Assembly: GCF_002198735.1 (NCBI RefSeq)
Contig: NZ_MWLO01000141.1
Location: forward strand, 62,001-126,000
DNA from: Ideonella sp. A 288
GTDB lineage: Bacteria; Pseudomonadota; Gammaproteobacteria; Burkholderiales; Burkholderiaceae_C
Direction: 5' to 3'
DNA length: 64,000 nucleotides
The translations under genes were made by a program, and so were the position numbers. This document shows, in pieces, positions 37,036-47,979 of the stretch. Under the pieces are notes generated by a model. The model saw nothing but the letters and a program-made list of their open reading frames with translations, was not told the DNA's origin and searched no databases. How positions within the stretch are numbered: position 1 is the first letter of the stretch; every line of letters begins with the position of its first letter.

Positions 37036-37142
37036 CGGCGCCGGCCAACGGACCCGCCGGCCCATTGCATCGTCGACCCCGAAAGGTCCACCCGCACAAT
37101 CGGCAATGGACGCGCGCCGCGCCGCGCTGCATGCTGCGGGGC

Positions 37143-38327
37143 ATGGCTGACACCCCCCTCCCCCCAGGCGCCGCGGGCGCCGGCCCGCTGGCCGGGCTCA
37201 AGGTGATCGAACTCGGGCAGCTCATCGCCGGCCCCTTCGCCGCCAAGACGCTGGCCGACTTCGGCGCCGACGTCATCAAGATCGAATCGCCCGACGGCGG
37301 CGACCCGCTGCGCAAGTGGCGGCTGCTGAAGGACGGCACCTCGGTGTGGTGGCAGGTGCAGTCGCGCAACAAGCGCTCGGTGGCGCTGGACCTGAAAGAC
37401 CCCGAGGCCCAGGCCGTGGTGCGGCAACTGGCCGCCGATGCCGACGTGCTGGTCGAGAACTTCCGCCCCGGCGCGATGGAGGGCTTCGGCCTGGCGCCGG
37501 ACGACCTGCTGGCCGCCAATCCGAGGCTCATCGTGCTGCGCATCAGCGGCTACGGCCAGACCGGGCCCTACCGCGACAAGCCCGGCTTCGGCGTCGTGGC
37601 CGAGGCCATGGGCGGCCTGCGCCACCTCAGCGCCGAACCCGGCCGCACACCCGTGCGCGTGGGCGTGAGCATCGGCGACACGCTGGCCGCGCTGCACGGC
37701 GTGATCGGCATCCTGATGGCGCTGAACGAACGCCACCGGAGCGGCCGCGGCCAGGTGATCGACGTGGCGCTGTACGAGGCCGTCTTCAACTGCATGGAGA
37801 GCCTGCTGCCCGAGTACAGCGCCTTCGGCGCGGTGCGCGGCCCGGCCGGCAGCGCGCTGCCGGGCATCGCGCCCAGCAACGCCTACGCCTGCCGCGACGG
37901 CCACGCGCTGGTGGCCGGCAACGGCGACAGCATCTTCCGCCGGCTGATGGCGGCCATCGGCCGCGACGACCTGGGCCGCGACCCGGCGCTGGCCGACAAC
38001 ACCGGCCGCGTCGCCCGCGTCGACGAGATCGACGCCGCCATCGGCGCCTGGACGGCCACGCGCACGGTCGACGAGGTGCTGGCCGCGCTGGACGCCGCCG
38101 CCGTGCCCGGCGGCCGCATCTACACCGTGGCCGACATCGCCCACGACCCGCACTACCAGGCCCGCGGCATGCTGCAGACGGTGGCGATGGACGACGGCAG
38201 CCTGCTCACCGTGCCCGGCATCGTGCCCAAGCTGTCGCGCACGCCCGGCGGCCACCGCCGCAATGCGCCCGCGCTGGGGCAGGACACCGCCGCGGTGCTG
38301 GACGAACTGAGGGCGCAGCGCCCATGA
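37143..38327 (+). CDS. class III CoA-transferase (CaiB/BaiF family)
   Basis: This 394-residue enzyme moves CoA between carboxylic acids. It has the family start LAGLKVIELGQLIAGPFAAKTLADFGADVIKIE, the RNKRSVALDLK block, SGYGQTGPY, and GVSIGD, whose Asp is the catalytic nucleophile position. The substrate cannot be told from sequence. Two in-frame ATGs (37131 and 37143) are possible; neither has a strong ribosome-binding site. It overlaps the following VOC gene by four bases (ATGA), so the two proteins probably share a pathway. Confidence 0.88.
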   Translation: MADTPLPPGAAGAGPLAGLKVIELGQLIAGPFAAKTLADFGADVIKIESPDGGDPLRKWRLLKDGTSVWWQVQSRNKRSVALDLKDPEAQAVVRQLAADADVLVENFRPGAMEGFGLAPDDLLAANPRLIVLRISGYGQTGPYRDKPGFGVVAEAMGGLRHLSAEPGRTPVRVGVSIGDTLAALHGVIGILMALNERHRSGRGQVIDVALYEAVFNCMESLLPEYSAFGAVRGPAGSALPGIAPSNAYACRDGHALVAGNGDSIFRRLMAAIGRDDLGRDPALADNTGRVARVDEIDAAIGAWTATRTVDEVLAALDAAAVPGGRIYTVADIAHDPHYQARGMLQTVAMDDGSLLTVPGIVPKLSRTPGGHRRNAPALGQDTAAVLDELRAQRP

Positions 38328-38716
38328 TCGACCACCTCGACCACCTGGTGCTCACCACCGCCGATGAGGCTGCGTGCGTCGACTTCTACACCCGCGTCCT
38401 CGGCATGCGGCTCGACGCCTTCGTCGGTGGCACGCCGCCGGTGGAGCGCAAGGCCTTCGCCTTCGGCGCGCAGAAGATCAACCTGCACGTCAAGGGCCGC
38501 GAATTCGAGCCCAAGGCGCACACGCCGGTGCCCGGCGCGCTGGACCTGTGCTTCATCGCCAGCGTGCCACTGGCCGAGGTGATGGCCCGCCTGGCCGCCG
38601 CCGGCTGGCCGATCGTCGAAGGTCCGGTGCTGCGCACCGGCGCCACCGGCCGCATCCGCTCGGTCTACCTGCGCGACCCGGACCTGAACCTGATCGAGGT
38701 GTCCGAGCCGGTGTGA
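38324..38716 (+). CDS. VOC family (glyoxalase-like) protein
   Basis: This 130-residue protein has the start IDHLDHLVLTTADEAACVDFYTRVLGM and the end VYLRDPDLNLIEV, the two halves of a vicinal oxygen chelate fold, with His near the start and Glu near the end as metal-ligand candidates. Members include glyoxalases, dioxygenases and epimerases. It is translationally coupled to the CoA-transferase gene, so a CoA-thioester or its acid is a plausible substrate. Confidence 0.85.
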   Translation: MIDHLDHLVLTTADEAACVDFYTRVLGMRLDAFVGGTPPVERKAFAFGAQKINLHVKGREFEPKAHTPVPGALDLCFIASVPLAEVMARLAAAGWPIVEGPVLRTGATGRIRSVYLRDPDLNLIEVSEPV

Positions 38717-38832
38717 TGCAGCGCCCAGGCCGACGGCATGGGCCGTCCGCCACGGGCCCGGGCTTGTCCGGTCTGGCGCGAGCACCCCGTCTGATGGGTG
38801 CAGCGGGCTTCAACCGCCGGAGTACCACCACC

Positions 38833-39126
38833 ATGCACCAGACAGCCGCCACGGCCGACCGGGCCGAGATCGCCGGTCAGGGCTTCGACGCGGACGAGCT
38901 TGCCGCGCGGGGGCTGTCCATCGTCGTCGAAAACACCAGCGACGAAGTGATGCAGGGTGCCGTCGTCCGCGTGCCGCTGCCGCCCCGCTGCACGCTGTCC
39001 GACCCCGATGGGCTCAATGCGATGCACGGCCTGCGCATGGGCCTCGACCATGCGCTGTGCCTGACCATCGACCGGCTGCAGCCCCACGACAGCCTGGTGA
39101 TCGTCGTGGCGCTGCGCACCCACTGA
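38833..39126 (+). CDS. small hypothetical protein, DUF11-like beta sandwich
   Basis: A 97-residue reading frame starts at ATG 38833 and has normal local codon bias. The stretch LSIVVENTSDEVMQGAVVRVPLPPRC followed by DSLVIVVAL resembles one DUF11-type beta-sandwich repeat, normally found many times in surface proteins. There is no signal peptide, so a lone cytoplasmic copy would be odd. It could be a decayed remnant or a chance frame. No ribosome-binding site is obvious. Confidence 0.45.
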   Translation: MHQTAATADRAEIAGQGFDADELAARGLSIVVENTSDEVMQGAVVRVPLPPRCTLSDPDGLNAMHGLRMGLDHALCLTIDRLQPHDSLVIVVALRTH

Positions 39127-39189
39127 GGCCCTGCTCGCGTTCGGTCGGCCCATGCAACACGCCAGGCACGGGCGCGAATCCGGCCCGGC

Positions 39190-39214
39190 CGCACGGCGCT
39201 GACCAGGCCGTGCG
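39190..39214 (+). terminator. hairpin downstream of the small hypothetical gene
   Basis: CGCACGGC (39190-39197) and GCCGTGCG (39207-39214) are perfect complements with a nine-base loop, between the small gene and the kinase promoter. There is no T-run. Confidence 0.4.
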
Positions 39215-39270
39215 AGGGTCGGTGCGGCCCCGCCACCGGCGCGCCCATCATGAAGTCGAATGACGACGGG

Positions 39271-39299
39271 TGTCCGCTTTGCGGCCAGGATCGCGTCTG
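39271..39299 (+). promoter_or_regulatory. putative ECF-sigma promoter of the Ser/Thr kinase operon
   Basis: TGTCCGCTTT (39271-39280) and GCGTCTG (39293-39299) recur at exactly the same spacing upstream of the small exported-protein gene on the other strand (44216 to 44188). CGTC is a common -10 core of ECF sigma factors, and an ECF gene lies in this locus. Transcription would begin near 39306, giving a leader of about 80 bases before ATG 39387. Confidence 0.55.
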
Positions 39300-39386
39300 T
39301 CATGCCATGGCCGTGCGATCCCGCCGAGGCCGTGCCTGCTGCCGGCCCAGGGCAGTGGCGAGCTCGCCGCACCATTGCCTGCACCC

Positions 39387-42038
39387 ATGCCTTTGACCGC
39401 CGACCAGATCCGCGACCTGAGCCGCCTGCTCGACGAGGCGCTGGCCTTGCCCGTGGACGAACGCGAGGCCTGGCTGGCGGCACTGCCGGCGGCCCGGCAG
39501 GCCCTGGTCGAACCGCTGCGTCGGATGCTGGCGCAGTCGGGCGCCGACACCGAGGGCAGTCTGCTGGCGACGCTGCCCCAATTGGACGGACTGGCCGCCG
39601 ACGCAGGCGACAGCACCCCGGCCGAGGCGGCCGAAGGCGAGCGCGTCGGGCCCTACCGGCTGCGCCAGGTGATCGGCCGCGGCGGCATGGGCGCGGTGTG
39701 GCTGGCCGACCGCGTCGACGGCATCTTCGAACGCGAGGTGGCGGTGAAGATGCCGCGCCTGTCGCGCCACCCCGGGCTGGCCGACCGCATGGCGCGCGAG
39801 CGCCAGATCGGCGCGCTGCTGGAGCATCCGCACATCGCACGGCTCTACGATGCCGGCATCGATGCGCTCGGCCGCCCCTATCTCGTGATGGAGCGCGTGC
39901 AGGGCGTCAACCTGATCGCCCACTGCGATCGCGAGGGGCTCGATCTGCGGCAGCGCCTGGGCCTGATGCTGCAGACCTGCGCCGCCCTGGCCCATGCCCA
40001 CCGCCTGCTGGTGGTGCACCGCGACATCAAGCCGTCCAATCTGCTGGTCGACCACGGGGGGCAGGTCAAGCTGCTGGATTTCGGCATTGCCCGTTTGCTG
40101 GACATCGACGGCCCGATGACCAACAGCCTGAGCGATGGCAGCCAGCGCACGCACACGCCCCGCTACGCCGCGCCCGAACAGCGGCAGGGCGATCCGGTGA
40201 GCACTGCAGCCGACATCTACTCGCTCGGCGTGGTGCTGCACGAGATGCTCACCGGCACCCTGCCCGATGCGCCGGCCGACCAGCTGAAGGCCGGCCGCGC
40301 CGGGCTGGACCGCGACCTGCGGGCCGTGCTGCGCCGGGCCCTGCGCGACAACCCCGACGAGCGCTACAGCTCGGTCGAGCGACTGGGCGACGACCTGCGC
40401 CGGGTGCTGTCGGGGCACCCGGTGACCGCCGAGCCGGCGGCCCCATGGCACCGCGCCGCGCTGTTCGCCCGCCGTCACAGCCTCGCTCTGGGCGCGGCGG
40501 CCGTGGTGCTCGGATTGATGGGCTCCAGTGCTGCGCTGTATGCGAGTCAGCAGACCCGCACCCGGGTGCAGGCCGACCGCGCGGCGCAGGCGCGCGAGTT
40601 CCTGTTCGACCTGTTCGAGGACGCCGAGCCACTGGACGGGCAGACCGGCGCAGAGGTCACCGGTGTCCGCATGGCCCAGGCCGCCCTGGCACGCGCGCGG
40701 CTGGGCTTTGCCAGCCAGCCGGACCTTCGCGCGCAGGTGCTGGTCGAGCTGGGCGTGCTGTTCCGCCGCTTCCAGCAGCCCGCCGAGGCGGAATCCATCC
40801 TGCGCGAAGGCCTGGCGCTGCTCGAACGGCACGCCGAGCGCGACGACCCCGCCTTGCAAATCGCCCGCGCGCAACTGGCCCTGCAACTGCTGGTCAGCCC
40901 GAGTGCCGAGCGGTCGAAGGAGGCCGATGACCTTGCGGGCCAGGCGCTGGCCGGCTGCCCCGCGACCAGCGCCCGCTGCGCCAAGGCGCGGGCCTACGCC
41001 TACAGCGCCTGGATGCTGTCGGCCAACGCCCGCGGCGACACCGACGCGATGGTCGTCAATGGCCGCCATGCGGTGCGCGAGCACGACGCCGCGTTCGGCC
41101 CGCGCCACGCCGAATCGGCGATGGCCCGGCTGCACCTGGCCATCATGCTGCGCAGCACCGGTGCCCTGCGCGAGGCCGCGGAGGCGCTCGATCAGGCCAT
41201 GGCCACGGCCGCGCAGGTGCCGATGCGTGCGGCCGACGCGCAGCACCTGCGCCTGAACCAGGCCCTGAGCCTGGCCGATCTGGGCCGCCACCAGGACGCC
41301 GTGTCGTCGCTGCAGGTGCTGTCGGTCGCCGAGGGTGGTGCCCCCCTCGGCGCGCTGGTGAGGAGGCTGCTCTCGCAGTCGATGTACGCCCTCGGGCGCT
41401 TCGAGCAAGCCCTCATCAACGCCGACGAGGCCTTGGCCACCGCGCGCGACGACGAGCCCGGCAGCGAGCGGCTGTTCGCCCGCCAGGCCCGCGCGCGCGC
41501 CCTGTCGGCGCTGGGCCGCCACACCGAGGCGCTGGCCGACATGGAGGCCGTGCGCACCGGGCTGGTCCGGCTGGGCCTGGCGCCCGGCAGCGTGTCGTTG
41601 CTGCGCGCCCGGCGCATCTCAGGCGAGGTGGCCCTGCGCGCCGGGCGCATCGCTGAGGCACGCGCCCTGCTCGACCCGGTGCCGGCCGCGCACCGGGGCA
41701 GCGATCCGGCGCATCCGGTGGCGCCTGTCGACCTGGCACTGGCGCTGGATCTGCTGGGGGCGCTGGAGCGCCAGGCCGGTGCTGCCGCCACCGCCCGCAC
41801 GCGCCATGCCGAGGCACGGTCGCTGCTCGCCGCCGCGCTGCCCGAACCGCATCCGCTGCGGCGACGCAATGCGCTCGAGGCCGCGCTGGCCGAGGCGCGC
41901 CTGCCGGGTGCAGCGCCGTCCGCCGCCGCCGACGCAGCGCGGAAGTACCTGGAGCTGCTGCCTGCCGATTCGGCATGGCGGCCGATGGTGAACGCCCTGG
42001 CTGCCGACCCGGCCGCCGCGGCCCCTTGGGTACTGTAG
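39387..42038 (+). CDS. membrane Ser/Thr protein kinase with C-terminal TPR-like region
   Basis: This 883-residue protein has a short helical N-terminus, a Hanks-type kinase domain (about residues 88-360) with GRGGMGAVWLAD (ATP loop), VAVKM (Lys), HRDIKPSNLL (catalytic loop), LLDFGIAR (metal site) and YAAPEQ, then one transmembrane helix (about 400-420, SLALGAAAVVLGLMG) and a long extracytoplasmic helical-repeat region. All catalytic residues are present, so it should be active. I chose ATG 39387; an upstream GTG at 39270 lies inside the predicted promoter. It is followed by a lipoprotein gene and faces an ECF sigma gene, a known pairing for this kinase class. Confidence 0.92.
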   Translation: MPLTADQIRDLSRLLDEALALPVDEREAWLAALPAARQALVEPLRRMLAQSGADTEGSLLATLPQLDGLAADAGDSTPAEAAEGERVGPYRLRQVIGRGGMGAVWLADRVDGIFEREVAVKMPRLSRHPGLADRMARERQIGALLEHPHIARLYDAGIDALGRPYLVMERVQGVNLIAHCDREGLDLRQRLGLMLQTCAALAHAHRLLVVHRDIKPSNLLVDHGGQVKLLDFGIARLLDIDGPMTNSLSDGSQRTHTPRYAAPEQRQGDPVSTAADIYSLGVVLHEMLTGTLPDAPADQLKAGRAGLDRDLRAVLRRALRDNPDERYSSVERLGDDLRRVLSGHPVTAEPAAPWHRAALFARRHSLALGAAAVVLGLMGSSAALYASQQTRTRVQADRAAQAREFLFDLFEDAEPLDGQTGAEVTGVRMAQAALARARLGFASQPDLRAQVLVELGVLFRRFQQPAEAESILREGLALLERHAERDDPALQIARAQLALQLLVSPSAERSKEADDLAGQALAGCPATSARCAKARAYAYSAWMLSANARGDTDAMVVNGRHAVREHDAAFGPRHAESAMARLHLAIMLRSTGALREAAEALDQAMATAAQVPMRAADAQHLRLNQALSLADLGRHQDAVSSLQVLSVAEGGAPLGALVRRLLSQSMYALGRFEQALINADEALATARDDEPGSERLFARQARARALSALGRHTEALADMEAVRTGLVRLGLAPGSVSLLRARRISGEVALRAGRIAEARALLDPVPAAHRGSDPAHPVAPVDLALALDLLGALERQAGAAATARTRHAEARSLLAAALPEPHPLRRRNALEAALAEARLPGAAPSAAADAARKYLELLPADSAWRPMVNALAADPAAAAPWVL

Positions 42039-42059
42039 ACAACGCACATCGGAGGAACC

Positions 42060-42467
42060 ATGCATCGATCCATGACACGCCTTGCCCCACCCGGACGCTG
42101 GCTGATGCTCGCCCTGGCGATCGCGGCCAGCGGCTGTGCATTGCCCCTCACCCCCGTGCCCAGCGCCCGGGCCACTACACCGACAAGCCCCGAGGCCATT
42201 GCCATCTGCAAGGCCCTTGATGACGCGCTGAGTGCCTTTGCCACCCTGCCGCGCGACTCGATCGACACGTCGACCCGGGCCATGCGGATCTCCATCATGT
42301 GGAGCAAAGTGCCGACGCCCTACCCCAACAAGATCTGCAACCTGTCCACCCAGGCGCAGCAGGGCCTGCTGCTGCTGTTGGCCGAGAACCCGGATCTGCA
42401 ATGCCAGGCGGCCTGTGGCAGCAGCAAGAGCGACGCCTGCAGCGCCAGCTGCAGCCCGACGCGCTGA
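42060..42467 (+). CDS. small Cys-rich lipoprotein
   Basis: This 135-residue protein starts at ATG 42060 with GGAGGA just upstream, 21 bases after the kinase stop, so it is in the kinase operon. The N-terminus is a lipoprotein signal (LALAIAASGC, lipobox Cys at about residue 26). The last 25 residues carry several Cys (QCQAACG, DACSASC), suggesting disulfides or metal binding in the periplasm. I do not recognise a family. By position it may be a ligand or partner of the kinase's extracytoplasmic region. Confidence 0.8.
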   Translation: MHRSMTRLAPPGRWLMLALAIAASGCALPLTPVPSARATTPTSPEAIAICKALDDALSAFATLPRDSIDTSTRAMRISIMWSKVPTPYPNKICNLSTQAQQGLLLLLAENPDLQCQAACGSSKSDACSASCSPTR

Positions 42468-42473
42468 GCCTGG

Positions 42474-42513
42474 GGCCGTGGCGGCACCGGCCACGCCGGG
42501 CGCCGCCACGGCC
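42474..42513. terminator. 12-bp bidirectional hairpin between convergent operons
   Basis: GGCCGTGGCGGC (42474-42485) and GCCGCCACGGCC (42502-42513) are perfect complements with a 16-base loop. It sits between the lipoprotein stop (42467) and the DUF418 stop (42522), where it can end both transcripts. T-runs are short. Confidence 0.6.
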
Positions 42514-42521
42514 TTGGCCTG

Positions 42522-43802
42522 TCAGCGGATCAAGGCGGCCGGCGCTGCCCTGCCGGATGGCCGGCCATAGGTCCATCCGGCCCACAGGGCCTCCAAGGGG
42601 CCGCGCTCGTGGCGCGCCAACCACCACAGGCTCCATGGCACCTGGACCGCGAAGAAGATGGCCAGCGCGAGCGCCACCCCGGCGGCCGGGCCCACGTGCC
42701 CCCACAGGCCCAGGCCCCAGCCCTGGAAGATCAGCAGGCACAGCACCGTCTGCATCAGGTAGTTGGTGAGCGGCATGCGACCCGCCGCCGCCAGGGGCGC
42801 GAGCAGGCGCGGGCCTCGCGGGCCGTGGGCGATGCGCGTGATCAGCAACACGTAGAAGATCGTCATCGACAGCCGACTGAACCAGTAGCACAGCCCGCCC
42901 AGCACCTTGATCGGCGACGGGCCGGGGGCACGGTTCAACTCGAAGATCAGGGTGAAGCCTGCCCCGCAGGCCAGCCCGATCGCCAGGGCCCACCACATGA
43001 GGCGCCGGATCTGCGGCATGAGCTCCGGGATGCGCGCAGCCCAGTGCCGTCGCCCGGCGAGCACGCCGACGAGCATCGTCAGCAGCATCTGCACGTACCA
43101 GCCGAAGCTGCCCCAAAGCGACCAGCGGTTGCCGTAGGCATACGCCATCACACGGGCGTTCTCGACCACCATGTCGGCCAGGCTGCCGTGACCGTAGGCC
43201 GCGTTGTTGCTGGCCTCGAAAGCCTGTGCCTGGGCCACGCGCATCGCGGTGATCTCGGGCGTGACCAGCTGAAGCCGCAACAGGCCGGCCGCCAGCGGAT
43301 ACAGCAGGCACAGCCCGATCAACACGACGATGCCGCGGTCTCCCATCCGCGCCAGCCCGAACAAGGCCACGATGCCCAGCACGGCATAGACGTGCAGCAC
43401 ATCGCCGGTCCACAACAGCACCGCGTGCAGCGCGCCGAGCAGCGCGAGCAGGACCAGGCGCCGAAGGTACAGGGCAGGGGTGCGCGCCGGGTCGCGCTCG
43501 CGCATGCGGGCGTACTGCAGCGTGAATCCGAGCCCGAACAGCATCGAGAACATGCTGTTGAACTTGCCCGAGAAGAGCATGTCGCGCAGTTGCTCGGCCG
43601 CCTGGTCGATGGCGCCTGGCCACTGGTGCGCGCCATCGGCCTCGGCGAAGCCGGAACTGCTGAACATCGGCATGTTCATGATCAGGATGCCCATCAGGGC
43701 GACGCCGCGCAGCACGTCGAGCGTCCAGATGCGCTCGCGCGCCGGCAGGGCACAGGCCGCTGCAGAGGCCGGACCGGACGCCGCCTGCTGGCGGGCGGTC
43801 AT
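42522..43802 (-). CDS. DUF418 family membrane protein
   Basis: This 426-residue inner-membrane protein has about ten hydrophobic helices. It begins with RIWTLDVLRGVALMGILIMNMPMF and contains FSMLFGLGFTLQYAR, family words of DUF418 (YeiB-like) proteins; the C-terminal part (AGRMPLTNYLMQTVLCLLIF through WTYGRP) is the DUF418 domain proper. The fold is related to acyltransferase 3, so a role in modifying envelope molecules is possible but unproven. It overlaps the small exported-protein gene by four bases (ATGA). Confidence 0.88.
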   Translation of the reverse strand: MTARQQAASGPASAAACALPARERIWTLDVLRGVALMGILIMNMPMFSSSGFAEADGAHQWPGAIDQAAEQLRDMLFSGKFNSMFSMLFGLGFTLQYARMRERDPARTPALYLRRLVLLALLGALHAVLLWTGDVLHVYAVLGIVALFGLARMGDRGIVVLIGLCLLYPLAAGLLRLQLVTPEITAMRVAQAQAFEASNNAAYGHGSLADMVVENARVMAYAYGNRWSLWGSFGWYVQMLLTMLVGVLAGRRHWAARIPELMPQIRRLMWWALAIGLACGAGFTLIFELNRAPGPSPIKVLGGLCYWFSRLSMTIFYVLLITRIAHGPRGPRLLAPLAAAGRMPLTNYLMQTVLCLLIFQGWGLGLWGHVGPAAGVALALAIFFAVQVPWSLWWLARHERGPLEALWAGWTYGRPSGRAAPAALIR

Positions 43803-44137
43803 TGCGCCACCCCCGTGCCGTCGGGCATCGGGCGGGACGCCCATCGATGGGTCGGGCGCGGTTGCGGCCACGGCAGGCTCTGCAGGCAGGCCTGGGTGGC
43901 CTCGTCGACCGACCGAGCCTGGTTCATCCGGAGGCGCACGCAGTGGGCCAGCACCCGCTGGCGGTGGGCCAGCGCCGACGCCTGCAGGGCCCGCGGCACC
44001 GGCGGCCCCCAGGGCAGGGCCCCGGACTGAGCCGCCTCGGCCTGTGCCGGTGTCGGCGCTGCCGCAGCGCCGTGGGCCGAGGTCGATGCGGCCAGGCCGC
44101 AGGCCAGGAGCCAGGTCACCGAGTTCCACATCGTCAT
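43799..44137 (-). CDS. small exported hypothetical protein
   Basis: This 112-residue protein has a signal peptide (MTMWNSVTWLLACGLAAST, then AHGAAAAPTPAQA). The mature part is short and helical, with two Cys in CVRLRMNQARSVDEATQAC that could form a disulfide. GGAGA lies seven bases before ATG 44137, which decides the start over the ATG at 44149. It is first in a two-gene operon with DUF418 and has an upstream promoter matching the kinase promoter. I do not recognise a family. Confidence 0.75.
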   Translation of the reverse strand: MTMWNSVTWLLACGLAASTSAHGAAAAPTPAQAEAAQSGALPWGPPVPRALQASALAHRQRVLAHCVRLRMNQARSVDEATQACLQSLPWPQPRPTHRWASRPMPDGTGVAQ

Positions 44138-44187
44138 GGGCGTCTCCACTGCCAGGCCCGTGCCTCGATGGCGGCCCGACACAAACC

Positions 44188-44216
44188 CAGACGCCGATCG
44201 GGGACGAAAGAGGACA
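44188..44216 (-). promoter_or_regulatory. putative ECF-sigma promoter of the exported-protein/DUF418 operon
   Basis: On the minus strand TGTCCTCTTT (44216 to 44207) and GCGTCTG (44194 to 44188) match the kinase-operon promoter in 9 of 10 and 7 of 7 positions, with the same 23-base distance from TGTCC to CGTCTG. The intervening bases differ, which is what a two-element promoter predicts. The leader would be about 45 bases. Confidence 0.55.
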
Positions 44217-44297
44217 AGCCCCCCCTGAGTCGGCCCTGGCACGGGTGCGGCCGCATCGGCACCCCCACGCCGCCGCCGTGGGGCGCCCGCGCCCCGC

Positions 44298-44852
44298 TCA
44301 GTTCCTGAGGATCGCGTCGAGCAGCAGGCGGGCCCGGTGCCAGTCGCGGCGCACGGTGCGCTCGGTGAGGTCCAGCGCCTCGGCGATCTCGGTTTCGGTG
44401 TAGCCACCGAAGTAGCGCATCTCAACCACCTTGGCCAGGCGCGGCTCGGCCTCGGCTAGGGCGTCGAGGGCTTCATGCACCTGCTGCAACTCCACCTCGG
44501 CGGCGGGAAGCTGGTTCAGCACCTGGGTATCGAGCGTCTGCTGCTCGCAATCGCCGCCACGGCGCTGGGCCTGGCGTTCGCGCACGGCGTCGACGATCAC
44601 CGAGCGCATCACGCTGGAGGCATAGGCGAAGAAGGCCCGGCGGTCTTCGGCGCGGATCGCTCCGCCCTTGAGCACGCGCAGGTAGGACTCGTGCACCAGC
44701 ACCGTGGTGTCGAGGCAGTGGCTGCGGTTGCCGCCGCGCAGGCGCGAGCGCGCGAGCTTGCGCAGCTCGCCGTAGGCGGCGGCGAACAACGCGTCGCGCG
44801 CGCCGGTTTCGCCGGCGCTGGCACGCTGCACCCACTCGCTGATCTCGGTCAC
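44298..44852 (-). CDS. ECF RNA polymerase sigma factor (TIGR02999 / kinase-associated type)
   Basis: This 184-residue sigma factor has region 2 (about residues 20-95) with LDTTVLVHESYLRVL, where the usual acidic core-binding residues are replaced by Thr, and region 4 (about 135-175) with YTETEIAEALDLTERTVRRDW. No anti-sigma gene is adjacent. Groups of this type (TIGR02999, ECF43) associate with Ser/Thr kinases, and in Vibrio the EcfP/PknT pair is activated by threonine phosphorylation. Thr49 and Thr50 are candidate sites. I chose GTG 44852 because GGAGG lies upstream and upstream in-frame starts have no family match. Confidence 0.88.
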   Translation of the reverse strand: MTEISEWVQRASAGETGARDALFAAAYGELRKLARSRLRGGNRSHCLDTTVLVHESYLRVLKGGAIRAEDRRAFFAYASSVMRSVIVDAVRERQAQRRGGDCEQQTLDTQVLNQLPAAEVELQQVHEALDALAEAEPRLAKVVEMRYFGGYTETEIAEALDLTERTVRRDWHRARLLLDAILRN

Positions 44853-44935
44853 CCTGGCCCTCCGATGGCCATGGGATGTTAGGGGGGACGGGCAAGGCCG
44901 GTATCCCCAATCGTAGGGATGAAGCCGCCGGGAGC

Positions 44936-45859
44936 TCAGGCCTTCCGCGACAGCCCGACCAGCCGCGCCTGCAGCGCCGCGGCCGCCTCGAACAGCGCGC
45001 GCTCGAAGGGCTCGGCCAGCGGGCTGGGGGCGCGCAGCTCGGGCCTGACCAGGCCCACGTGGAAGGGGATCGACACCGACAGCGGCCGGATGTGCAGGCC
45101 CGGGCCGGCCAGTTCCAGCGCCGTCAGCGGGTTGACGATGGCCACGCCCAGGCCCTGGCGCACCAGCGCGCACACGGTGACGGCGCTGGCCGCCTCGACC
45201 GCCATCGTGCGCGCCACCGCCTGGCTTTCAAAAAGAGCGTCCACCGCCTGACGGTACGGATCGGCCCGCGCGAGGCTGACGAAGGCCTGCCCGGCGAAAT
45301 CGCGCGGGCGCAGCACGCGCCGGGCCAACAAGGGGTGGCCATCGGGCAGCACGGCCACCTCGTCGGCCTGCAGCAGCGGCTTCAGCGCCGTGGCCGGCGG
45401 CGCCTGCCGCGCCTCGACCAGGCCGAGGTCGAAGCGCTGCTCGGTGAGCTGCTGCTCGAGCAGCGGCGACTCCTGCGAGGTGATCGACAGACCGGCCTGC
45501 GGATGCCCCAGCAGGAAGCGGCGCGCGGCGTCGGGCAGCAGCGCATGGCCCAGCGCCGGCAGGCAGGCCAGCGCCAGCCGGCCTTGAGCGAACTCGCGCA
45601 GGCCCGCGGCCGCGGCGGCGATGCGCTCCAGGCCGATGAACGAGCGCTCCACCTCGTCGAGCAGGGCCATCGCCCGCACCGTGGGCCGCAGCCGGCCGCG
45701 CACGCGGTCGAACAAGGCCATGCCCAGCGTGCGTTCGAGCCGCGCGAGTTCGCGGCTGACGGTGGGTTGCGAGCTGCCCATGGCATCGGCCGCTCGGGTG
45801 ACGTGGCCGGCGGCCATCACGGCGCGGAACACCTCGATCTGGCGGTGGGTGAGCTTCAT
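44936..45859 (-). CDS. lysR: LysR family regulator, probably of lysA
   Basis: This 307-residue regulator has an N-terminal winged helix-turn-helix (residues 1-62, THRQIEVFRAVMAAGHVTRAADAMGSSQ is split across the recognition helices) and a C-terminal LysR effector domain. It is divergent from lysA with a 75-base gap, the classic lysR/lysA arrangement, where LysR with diaminopimelate activates lysA. The start MKLTHRQIEVF is unambiguous. A 23-base dyad covers its own start codon. Confidence 0.88.
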   Translation of the reverse strand: MKLTHRQIEVFRAVMAAGHVTRAADAMGSSQPTVSRELARLERTLGMALFDRVRGRLRPTVRAMALLDEVERSFIGLERIAAAAAGLREFAQGRLALACLPALGHALLPDAARRFLLGHPQAGLSITSQESPLLEQQLTEQRFDLGLVEARQAPPATALKPLLQADEVAVLPDGHPLLARRVLRPRDFAGQAFVSLARADPYRQAVDALFESQAVARTMAVEAASAVTVCALVRQGLGVAIVNPLTALELAGPGLHIRPLSVSIPFHVGLVRPELRAPSPLAEPFERALFEAAAALQARLVGLSRKA

Positions 45860-45878
45860 GCATATCGATTTTGCATGA
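45856..45878. promoter_or_regulatory. dyad, probable LysR-type operator
   Basis: TCATGCA, nine bases, TGCATGA form a perfect 7-bp inverted repeat that overlaps the lysR start codon and points into the lysR/lysA gap. A second palindrome TGCATGCA lies at 45899-45906 on the lysA side. The pair fits a LysR regulatory and activation site. Confidence 0.5.
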
Positions 45879-45934
45879 TCCAGTCGAATTTCTGTCATTG
45901 CATGCATTGCGAGGCCGACGCACCATCGCGTCCC

Positions 45935-47161
45935 ATGAACCCTTTCGCCCCGACCCTCCTGCGCCAGCTGGCGCAACAGCACGGCACGCCGCTGTGGGTG
46001 TACGACGCCGACACCGTGCGCGAGCGCATCGCCGAACTGCGGCCTTTCGACACCATCCGCTTCGCGCAGAAGGCCAACGCCAACATCCACCTGCTGCAGC
46101 TGATGCGCGCCCAGGGCGTGCGCGTCGATGCGGTGTCGCTGGGCGAGATCGAGCGCGCGCTGGCCGCCGGCTACGCGCCGGGCGACGCCGGCGAGATCGT
46201 CTTCACCGCCGACCTGCTGGACGCGGCCACGCTGGACCGCGTGGTGCGCGAGCGCATCCCCGTCAACGCCGGGTCGGTCGACATGCTGCACCAGCTGGGC
46301 CGGCGCTCGCCCGGCCACCGCGTGTGGCTGCGCATCAACCCGGGCTTCGGCCACGGCCACAGCAACAAGACCAACACCGGCGGCGAGCACAGCAAGCACG
46401 GCATCTGGCACGAGGACCTCGCGCAGGCGCTGGCGGCCATCGGCGCGCACGGCCTTCACCTGGTGGGCCTGCACATGCACATCGGCTCGGGCGTCGACTA
46501 CGGCCACTTGCAGCAGGTGTGCCAGGCGATGGTGGACCTGGCCGCGCGGGTGACGGGTCCGATCGAGGCCATCTCGGCCGGCGGCGGCCTGTCGATCCCC
46601 TACCGCGACGGCGAACCGCGCATCGACACGGCGCACTACTTCAGCCTGTGGGACGACGCGCGCCGCCGCATCGCCGCCGCGCGCGGCCACGCCATCCAGC
46701 TGGAGATCGAGCCCGGGCGCTTCCTGGTGGCCGAGTGCGGCGTGCTGGTGGCCGAGGTGCGCGCCACCAAGGCGATGGGCGCCAACCACTTCGTGCTGGT
46801 CGATGCCGGCTTCAACGACCTGATGCGGCCGTCGATGTACGGCAGCCACCATGGCATCGAGCTGCTGCCGGCCGACGAGCGGCCGCGCGCGCTGCGCCCG
46901 TCGGTGGTGGCCGGGCCGCTGTGCGAATCGGGCGACGTGTTCACGCAGGGCGAGGGCGGCGTGGTGCTGTCGCGCGAGCTGCCCGAGGCGCAGGTGGGCG
47001 ACCTGCTGGTGTTCCACGATGCCGGCGCCTATGGGGCCTCGATGTCCTCCAACTACAACAGCCGACCGCTCGCGGCGGAGGTGCTGGTTGACGGCGGTCA
47101 AGCGCGGCTGGTGCGGCGGCGGCAGACCATCCAGGAACTGCTGGCGCTCGAGATGCTTTAG
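45935..47161 (+). CDS. lysA: diaminopimelate decarboxylase
   Basis: This 408-residue pyridoxal-phosphate enzyme makes lysine from meso-diaminopimelate. It has the cofactor Lys in FAQKANANIHLLQL, HMHIGSG, SAGGGLSIPY, EPGRFLVAE and the second-subunit active-site block GPLCESGDVF, all typical of fold III decarboxylases. It is transcribed away from a LysR gene. No ribosome-binding site is obvious before ATG 45935, but the family start supports it. Confidence 0.93.
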   Translation: MNPFAPTLLRQLAQQHGTPLWVYDADTVRERIAELRPFDTIRFAQKANANIHLLQLMRAQGVRVDAVSLGEIERALAAGYAPGDAGEIVFTADLLDAATLDRVVRERIPVNAGSVDMLHQLGRRSPGHRVWLRINPGFGHGHSNKTNTGGEHSKHGIWHEDLAQALAAIGAHGLHLVGLHMHIGSGVDYGHLQQVCQAMVDLAARVTGPIEAISAGGGLSIPYRDGEPRIDTAHYFSLWDDARRRIAAARGHAIQLEIEPGRFLVAECGVLVAEVRATKAMGANHFVLVDAGFNDLMRPSMYGSHHGIELLPADERPRALRPSVVAGPLCESGDVFTQGEGGVVLSRELPEAQVGDLLVFHDAGAYGASMSSNYNSRPLAAEVLVDGGQARLVRRRQTIQELLALEML

Positions 47162-47247
47162 CCAGATCAACGACTTGGCTACAAAAGGTGTCGAGACTTC
47201 ACGCCGCGCGGAGGAGTGCCTAGCATCGGGGCCAGGAGGCGATCCGT

Positions 47248-47979
47248 GTGGATCGGGCACCCATGAGACCGTTCAACGACACCGCCGCGCTCGGCACTTC
47301 ACAGAGGGCCGTGCTGCCGATCCCGCTGGCGGTGCCCCTCTCGGAACCACCGGCCGCACCGCAGTTGGTGGTGCGGGTGGCCCGGCCGCAGGACGCGCCG
47401 GCGATCGATGCCTTGCGTTTCGCCTCTTACGCGGCGGCGCCTTGGTTCCCCGGTCTGGACATGTCGGCATTGAAGCGCGAGCGCGACCACCCCGACACCC
47501 GGGTGCTGCTGATCGAGCGCGACGGCATGCTGCTGTCCACCGTGGCCGTGACGCTGCTGCGCTCGGCACGTGCCGTGGGCGACCTGCTCGAGAACCCAGT
47601 GCCCGACGACCTGGCGGACGAACTGCCGGCGGTGGTGCTGCAGCGCGCGGCCTCGGCGGTGGGGCAGCGCGGCCTCGGGCTGCTGCCGATCATGCGGCAC
47701 CACTACATCAGCGCCGCCCAGCGCTGCGGCGCACGGGTTCTGTTGTCGGCCCATGCGGCGGGCACGCCCAACCTGTCGTGCATGTCCAAGCTGGGCTACC
47801 GGCTCACGCCGGTGGGCCTGCGGCGGCCTGAAAACAGCGTGCTGGCGGCCGATACCCAGGTCATCGTCTCCAGCCTGCCGCGCAGCCAGTTCGCCACCGC
47901 CCTCGACGGGCTCGAATCGAACTATCCCGAGGCCCTGGCCAACTCGCGCTGGCGCGGCGAGCCCCTGCGGCTGGCCTGA
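47248..47979 (+). CDS. GNAT-fold protein resembling N-acyl amino acid synthase (FeeM-like)
   Basis: This 243-residue protein starts at GTG 47248, eight bases after a perfect AGGAGG. The segment VVRVARPQDAPAIDALRFASY followed by TRVLLIERDGMLLSTVAVTLLR looks like the start of a FeeM/autoinducer-synthase-like acyltransferase, and MRHHYISAAQRCGARVLLSAH fits the acceptor-side half. Such enzymes use acyl-ACP to make N-acyl amino acids, but this assignment is by resemblance only. The gene is alone and ends at a strong terminator. Confidence 0.65.
   Translation: MDRAPMRPFNDTAALGTSQRAVLPIPLAVPLSEPPAAPQLVVRVARPQDAPAIDALRFASYAAAPWFPGLDMSALKRERDHPDTRVLLIERDGMLLSTVAVTLLRSARAVGDLLENPVPDDLADELPAVVLQRAASAVGQRGLGLLPIMRHHYISAAQRCGARVLLSAHAAGTPNLSCMSKLGYRLTPVGLRRPENSVLAADTQVIVSSLPRSQFATALDGLESNYPEALANSRWRGEPLRLA

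Follow-up and report, generated by a model that had tools for sequence, protein, structure and literature searches.

A probable ECF43-type sigma factor/receptor kinase switch with lineage-specific neighboring genes in Ideonella sp. A 288

Genes at the locus

The locus described here lies in a window of 64,000 nucleotides from Ideonella sp. A 288 (contig NZ_MWLO01000141.1, positions 62,001 to 126,000 of the forward strand; coordinates below are those of the window), in which the gene of an extracytoplasmic function (ECF) sigma factor of the ECF43 type and that of a transmembrane Hanks-type Ser/Thr kinase point toward each other. The kinase gene occupies 39387-42038 on the plus strand and encodes 883 amino acids. 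The sigma gene, which begins with a GTG codon, occupies 44298-44852 on the minus strand, leaving a gap of 2.26 kb between the two. A first-pass annotation made from the sequence alone had placed five genes here, and all five frames were confirmed, with the kinase start refined to 39387. A longer GTG frame runs from 39270, matching the 39271 of that annotation, but the ATG at 39387 was chosen, since the alignment with PknS, a kinase of Xanthomonas citri, begins at residue 3.

The remaining three genes lie between this pair and are organized as the first-pass annotation had described them. Directly after the kinase gene, at 42060-42467 on the plus strand, is the gene of a putative Cys-rich lipoprotein of 135 amino acids, an orphan with 7 Cys residues and a lipobox ending ASG-C; its start lies 21 bases downstream of the kinase stop codon and is preceded by a GGAGG site. 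On the minus strand, the gene of a second orphan, a small exported protein of 112 amino acids (43799-44137), is followed by that of a DUF418 membrane protein (42522-43802; PF04235, E value of 1.5e-39, 136 bits against a cut-off of 23.6), the stop codon of the former (43801-43799) overlapping the ATG of the latter (43802) in a four-base ATGA. Third-position G+C content is 0.85 to 0.92 across all five frames, and all five are therefore probably coding. Codon scores per codon are 0.21 for the lipoprotein and 0.10 for the small exported protein versus 0.67 to 0.81 for the other three; the kinase, DUF418, and sigma genes were in the training set, and an untrained neighboring frame at 38833-39126 still scored 0.62. 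That frame, on the plus strand just upstream of the kinase gene, has a third-position G+C content of 0.90, coding-like codon usage, and no Pfam match.

The convergent gene groups are separated by a strong hairpin at 42474-42513, assigned to no strand, with 15-nucleotide arms that are 93% complementary. On either strand, none of 200 shuffles was as stable (z of -4.4 and -4.5). The hairpin has no T run and was not listed by a terminator scan; it is possible that it serves as a shared terminator of both groups. Immediately after the sigma gene, the 71 bases at 44230-44300 fold no more stably than shuffles (z of 0.49), so the three minus-strand genes may form one transcript, in which the sigma gene would perhaps be cotranscribed with those of the small exported protein and of DUF418. 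A scan of 38700-45300 for sigma-70 consensus promoters found none, against a chance expectation of 0.1. No anti-sigma family was found among the Pfam matches of 11 proteins and long frames in 37131-47976, a range that does not take in a distant gene and in which 4 of the 11 match no family (two of the five described here, plus 38833-39126 and 47263-47979); to that extent, the earlier statement that the sigma gene has no anti-sigma gene nearby was borne out.

The sigma factor and the kinase

Judged by its sequence, the sigma factor belongs to the TIGR02999/ECF43 type, as first proposed, and is an ordinary member, scoring 174.8 bits against TIGR02999 (cut-off of 126.15; E value of 1.6e-51) and 154.8 bits against PF07638. 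Its region 2.2 reads D48-T49-T50-V51. Typical ECF factors carry the motif DAED, which every member of the group lacks according to one paper (PMC8999054), and the ECF43 consensus is QTTA according to another (PMC13147305). Compared with DAED, the window protein keeps the first Asp, whereas T49 replaces Ala, T50 replaces Glu, and V51 replaces the second Asp; the earlier remark that both Thr residues stand at acidic positions is thus correct for T50 and incorrect for T49. In an alignment of 103 rows, which includes the window and a few duplicate contigs, Thr is found at position 50 in 92 and at position 49 in 90, Asp is found at position 48 in 80, and DTTV and DTTA each account for 26. The Thr pair is a family rule and not a peculiarity. 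At position 106, in the linker, the window also has Thr, the residue in 74 of the 103 rows (Ser in 7, Asp in 5). Phosphorylation of EcfK, the sigma factor partner of PknS, is described at T51 and at T104, T106, S108, and S110 (PMC13147305).

The kinase has the build of the PknS/PknT-type receptor kinases, with an N-terminal helical extension (residues 5 to 61), a kinase domain at about 88 to 345 (Pkinase, E value of 6.6e-38) with complete catalytic residues, a single membrane helix near 366 to 384, and a tetratricopeptide repeat (TPR)-like periplasmic superhelix at about 426 to 882 (TPR_12). The catalytic K121, D213, and D231 fall in invariant columns of 42 aligned kinases, namely, that of the window and 41 of 56 listed. 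An AlphaFold2 model (mean predicted local distance difference test [pLDDT] of 86.3; predicted template modeling score of 0.61) predicts N-terminal helices, a kinase domain, and an all-helical ectodomain whose 24 helices begin at residue 426 and reach the C terminus, in keeping with the extracytoplasmic helical repeats of the first description. The top match by sequence in the PDB is 9eed_A, PknS of X. citri, over residues 3 to 299 (E value of 3.1e-40); PknB chains are nearly level (3.4e-40) but cover the kinase domain only (89 to 349). In a Foldseek comparison, 9eed_A ranks tenth among the matches listed, after PknB and PknA chains, and those matches (the best 50) comprise only kinase domains, with nothing on the ectodomain.

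The genome itself (G000; 6.98 Mb in 164 contigs) holds 8 matches to the sigma protein at E values of ≤1, of which 7, including that of the window, are strong and the eighth is weak (E value of 0.0096), along with 17 kinase-domain matches at E values of ≤1e-10. After the window kinase, the top six kinases (191.7 to 261.2 bits) are the six encoded beside the other ECF43-type sigma genes, and the next scores 115.4. Those six pairs all have the sigma gene followed by the kinase gene on the same strand. The seven pairs lie on contigs C48, C97, C52, C70, C37, C136, and C137, the C97 sigma factor being 69% identical to that of the window; seven pairs in one genome raise the question of insulation between them. 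A sigma protein search of genome contigs confirmed 124 candidates, of which 80 were kept as loci. Using tblastn on the stretch around each, a related kinase domain was found near the sigma gene in 73 of the 80; five of the other seven are contigs of under 6.5 kb, and two (L036 and L106) are complete stretches. Over 84 pairs, sigma identities correlate with kinase identities (Mantel r of 0.58, against a maximum of 0.16 in 500 permutations).

Layout and neighboring genes in related loci

Layouts were surveyed on 107 stretches (the window, the 80 sigma loci, 23 from genomes, and three more, with a few contigs present twice). The sigma gene precedes the kinase gene in 74, the two are convergent in 5 and divergent in 5, and the kinase gene comes first in 3; the rest have no kinase within six genes (14) or no sigma gene called (6). 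The gene caller overlooks some kinases; that of L035, for instance, is detected by tblastn. Relatives of the window ectodomain occur in 8 of 399 family genomes, its own included (E value of ≤1e-20; up to 3 candidates scored). In G239, G380, and G150, the kinase gene is followed by one for a small exported protein containing Cys and then by the sigma gene in convergent orientation, a recurrence that spans two genera, with G150 and G380 in one. The ectodomains of these three are 41 to 48% identical to that of the window (over 164 residues only in G150, where the kinase runs off the contig), and their sigma factors are 61 to 64% identical; the value for the sigma factor of G162 is only 37%. The order is sigma, kinase, and small exported protein in G162; in G362, sigma and kinase are followed by a gene whose product has no obvious signal peptide. 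Two genomes from the genus of the window, G003 and G016 (L196:7741-10245 and L197:7777-10260), have a same-ectodomain kinase in an identical gene context, and no sigma gene was seen on the 16 kb around it.

A kinase tree of 86 rows, with near-copies left out, groups the window with L147, L143, L149, and the long-branched L050 (99/89); L149 has the usual layout and L050 is divergent. The sigma tree (64 rows, after exclusion of near-copies and of many rows from Acidobacteria, Xanthomonadaceae, Steroidobacteraceae, and Aquabacterium) requires the convergent label to change at least twice. In two other convergent loci, L077 and L090, the kinase and sigma genes are direct neighbors; the L077 kinase falls elsewhere in the kinase tree, and the L090 kinase runs off its contig. 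One ancestral convergent module is possible, though not demonstrated.

The small exported proteins encoded after kinases elsewhere have no detectable similarity to the window lipoprotein (p of 0.41 to 0.83). Among them, only those of L146 and L147 are clear homologues; the values for L143-L146 (p of 0.02) and L143-L195 (p of 0.013) are not significant in 15 comparisons. Small exported genes are not generally enriched after ECF43-linked kinases (3 of 38, versus 44 of 575 background genes) in a sample of 83 kinases of >500 amino acids with the next gene called, of which 38 have a same-strand next gene within 250 bases. This test undercounts: the window lipoprotein and the L143 and L147 proteins escaped its start calls and its crude rule for signal peptides. 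Proteins of 62 to 94 amino acids with a single hydrophobic stretch also occur near ECF43-type sigma or kinase genes. By sequence, they fall into two loosely related families, one at L032:2142-2354, L136:7735-7923, and L147:4706-4903 and the other at L037:9571-9855, L139:8695-8979 (the same contig as L037), and L141:8759-9001; neither was found in 30001-55000 of the window.

The first-pass annotation had treated a lack of conservation as grounds against its five-gene module, and three of the five genes proved to be unconserved in the neighborhood search. At an E value of ≤1e-4, the lipoprotein has a match in its own genome alone among 299 family genomes (up to 14 candidates scored in each), and the small exported protein has matches in 2, its own and G063 (up to 15), the G063 match (E value of 9.9e-6) being a chance one with three internal stops. 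Within the genus (21 genomes), both proteins give only weak matches, with E values of 0.002 to 0.01. Those of the small exported protein in G012 and at a second place in G000 (0.009) and those of the lipoprotein in G002, G013, and G006 (0.002 to 0.007) were set aside as chance, as was a lipoprotein match of 47 residues in L145 (0.004). Both proteins are thus, as far as sequence comparison goes, without a credible relative in the 299 family genomes. A lipoprotein model made without an alignment had a mean pLDDT of 64 and was not used. DUF418 relatives occur in 11 of the 299 genomes, including its own, at E values of ≤1e-60, the closest, at 66% identity, being in G310 (up to 5 candidates scored). 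No sigma or kinase relative was found around any of the 10 others, six with up to 16 kb (L198 to L203) and four with about 4 kb (L166 to L169). In a final tblastn over 204 loci (E value of ≤1e-3), 163 had a sigma relative, and 80 of these are flanked by 3 kb or more on each side. None of the three genes (lipoprotein, small exported protein, and DUF418) had a relative in these 80 well-flanked loci, and among the remaining sigma loci, only L001, L112, and L159 carry relatives of the three, all of them the window's own DNA. Likewise, the neighbors of the window pair are in none of 60 clusters built from 383 neighbor proteins. The three are lineage-specific neighbors. Judged by titles and the opening lines of abstracts, no paper was found on a locus joining DUF418, a sigma factor, and a kinase.

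Promoter words (6- and 7-mers) were sought upstream of 88 sigma genes against a background of 707 other genes, after near-identical stretches were removed. None survives multiple-test correction (best p of 3.7e-5 among thousands of words) in this test, which covered sigma genes only and did not directly test the supposed target genes. The word CCGACAT is found upstream of 7 of the 88 ECF43-type sigma genes versus 6 of the 707 others (uncorrected p of 1.6e-4), in L042, L043, L047, L051, L055, and L059 and, at the very start of the gene, in L143; it is no more than a lead to a promoter element. Between 38000 and 46000 of the window, every occurrence of [CG]GACAT lies within a gene.

Interpretation and comparison with known systems

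Family membership, domain architecture, both candidate acceptor residues, the ECF43 linkage of the closest relatives of the kinase in its own genome, and the recurrence of the pair were computed here. Together they make it likely, with a probability of about 0.8, that the locus is a member of the known ECF43 sigma factor/Hanks-type kinase switch, for which phosphorylation, its direction, and its effect would follow by analogy with PknS-EcfK and PknT-EcfP. A periplasmic cue on the TPR ectodomain would lead to kinase autophosphorylation, the kinase would transfer phosphate to T50, and probably also to T106, of the sigma factor, and phosphorylation would provide the negative charge that the sigma factor otherwise lacks for RNA polymerase binding. 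Several points weigh against this assignment. The layout is convergent and spread over 2.26 kb, unlike the usual sigma-then-kinase order, six further ECF43-linked kinases are encoded in the same genome, and a partner test by correlation fails to separate the window kinase (0.48) from the C97 kinase (0.49). Convergent loci are not grouped in the sigma tree, where branching around the window lacks resolution. EcfK with T51A alone is still functional and with T51A plus T106A is not (PMC13147305), and T50 therefore need not be the main switch here.

The same distant layout and the same failure of separation would suit a sigma factor served by another ECF43-linked kinase of the genome, for example that of C97, with the window kinase acting on another substrate, and so would the same-ectodomain kinases of G003 and G016, with no sigma gene on 16 kb. 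However, this ectodomain type adjoins a TIGR02999-like sigma gene in G239, G380, G150, and G162. Local pairing is therefore favored, and such an exchange of partners appears quite unlikely. The first-pass annotation went further in proposing that the kinase senses through the lipoprotein and that the sigma factor drives a small envelope regulon comprising the kinase-lipoprotein operon and the genes of the small exported protein and of DUF418. The gene layout, the lack of an unusually stable fold after the sigma gene, and the presence of a small exported Cys-containing gene after the kinase in four same-ectodomain loci (L143, L146, L147, and L195) all fit that scheme. Yet the three extra genes have no relative in the 80 well-flanked loci, two of them are orphans, the small exported proteins elsewhere are dissimilar to the lipoprotein, and no word upstream of sigma genes is significant after correction. 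The regulon is unlikely on these grounds, and the proposed set of output genes, with a DUF418 protein whose relatives have no sigma or kinase gene nearby, is not supported; the kinase-sigma pair and its phosphorylation switch were retained as probable by homology with known ECF43 systems. The two orphan frames, those of the lipoprotein and of the small exported protein, have the lowest codon scores among the five and might also be spurious and not genes, but their third-position G+C contents (0.85 and 0.90) are the best of six frames, and the GGAG-type sites, exported N termini, and ATGA overlap with DUF418 make that very unlikely.

Within the ECF43 switch favored above, the fast-evolving small exported Cys-containing protein of the kinase operon, here the lipoprotein, might, in this branch, serve the TPR ectodomain as an accessory sensor or act on it as a ligand or inhibitor. 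We consider this doubtful; if true, each module would have its own private input. A genome with seven pairs, in one of which a lipoprotein gene sits immediately downstream of the kinase gene, would be well suited to studying how ECF43-linked kinases sense their cue and how paralogous pairs are insulated from one another. Otherwise, the locus extends a known family. The convergent layout together with the small exported gene is its less usual feature and a modest lead.

The loci of G239, G380, and G150 are like the window in layout, ectodomain type, and ECF43-type sigma factor; unlike the window, they have no relative of DUF418 or the small exported protein on the sigma side, and their small protein after the kinase is no detectable homologue of the window lipoprotein. 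Among known systems, the nearest comparisons are PknS-EcfK of X. citri and PknT-EcfP of Vibrio parahaemolyticus, the latter reportedly studied by Iyer et al. 2020. According to PMC13147305, PknS has an 83-amino-acid extension, a kinase domain, a transmembrane helix, and three TPRs, and it directly phosphorylates EcfK; its ectodomain seems to restrain autophosphorylation, and the activation mechanism through the periplasmic region is left by the authors to future studies. The window kinase shares with PknS an N-terminal extension of >80 amino acids, the Hanks domain, one transmembrane helix, and periplasmic TPRs, and the window sigma factor has equivalents of Thr51 and Thr106 of EcfK in T50 and T106. 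By contrast, PknS is encoded in a type VI secretion system cluster, which PknS and EcfK induce, and the window pair differs in its motif (DTTV versus QATE), convergent layout, and neighbors (PMC13147305). PknT-EcfP is likewise an ECF43 factor with a kinase partner, in which a phospho-Thr in region 2.2 supplies the missing charge; it differs in having the motif STTA and a polymyxin-linked regulon, whereas the window sigma factor keeps the first Asp (PMC8999054 and PMC13147305).

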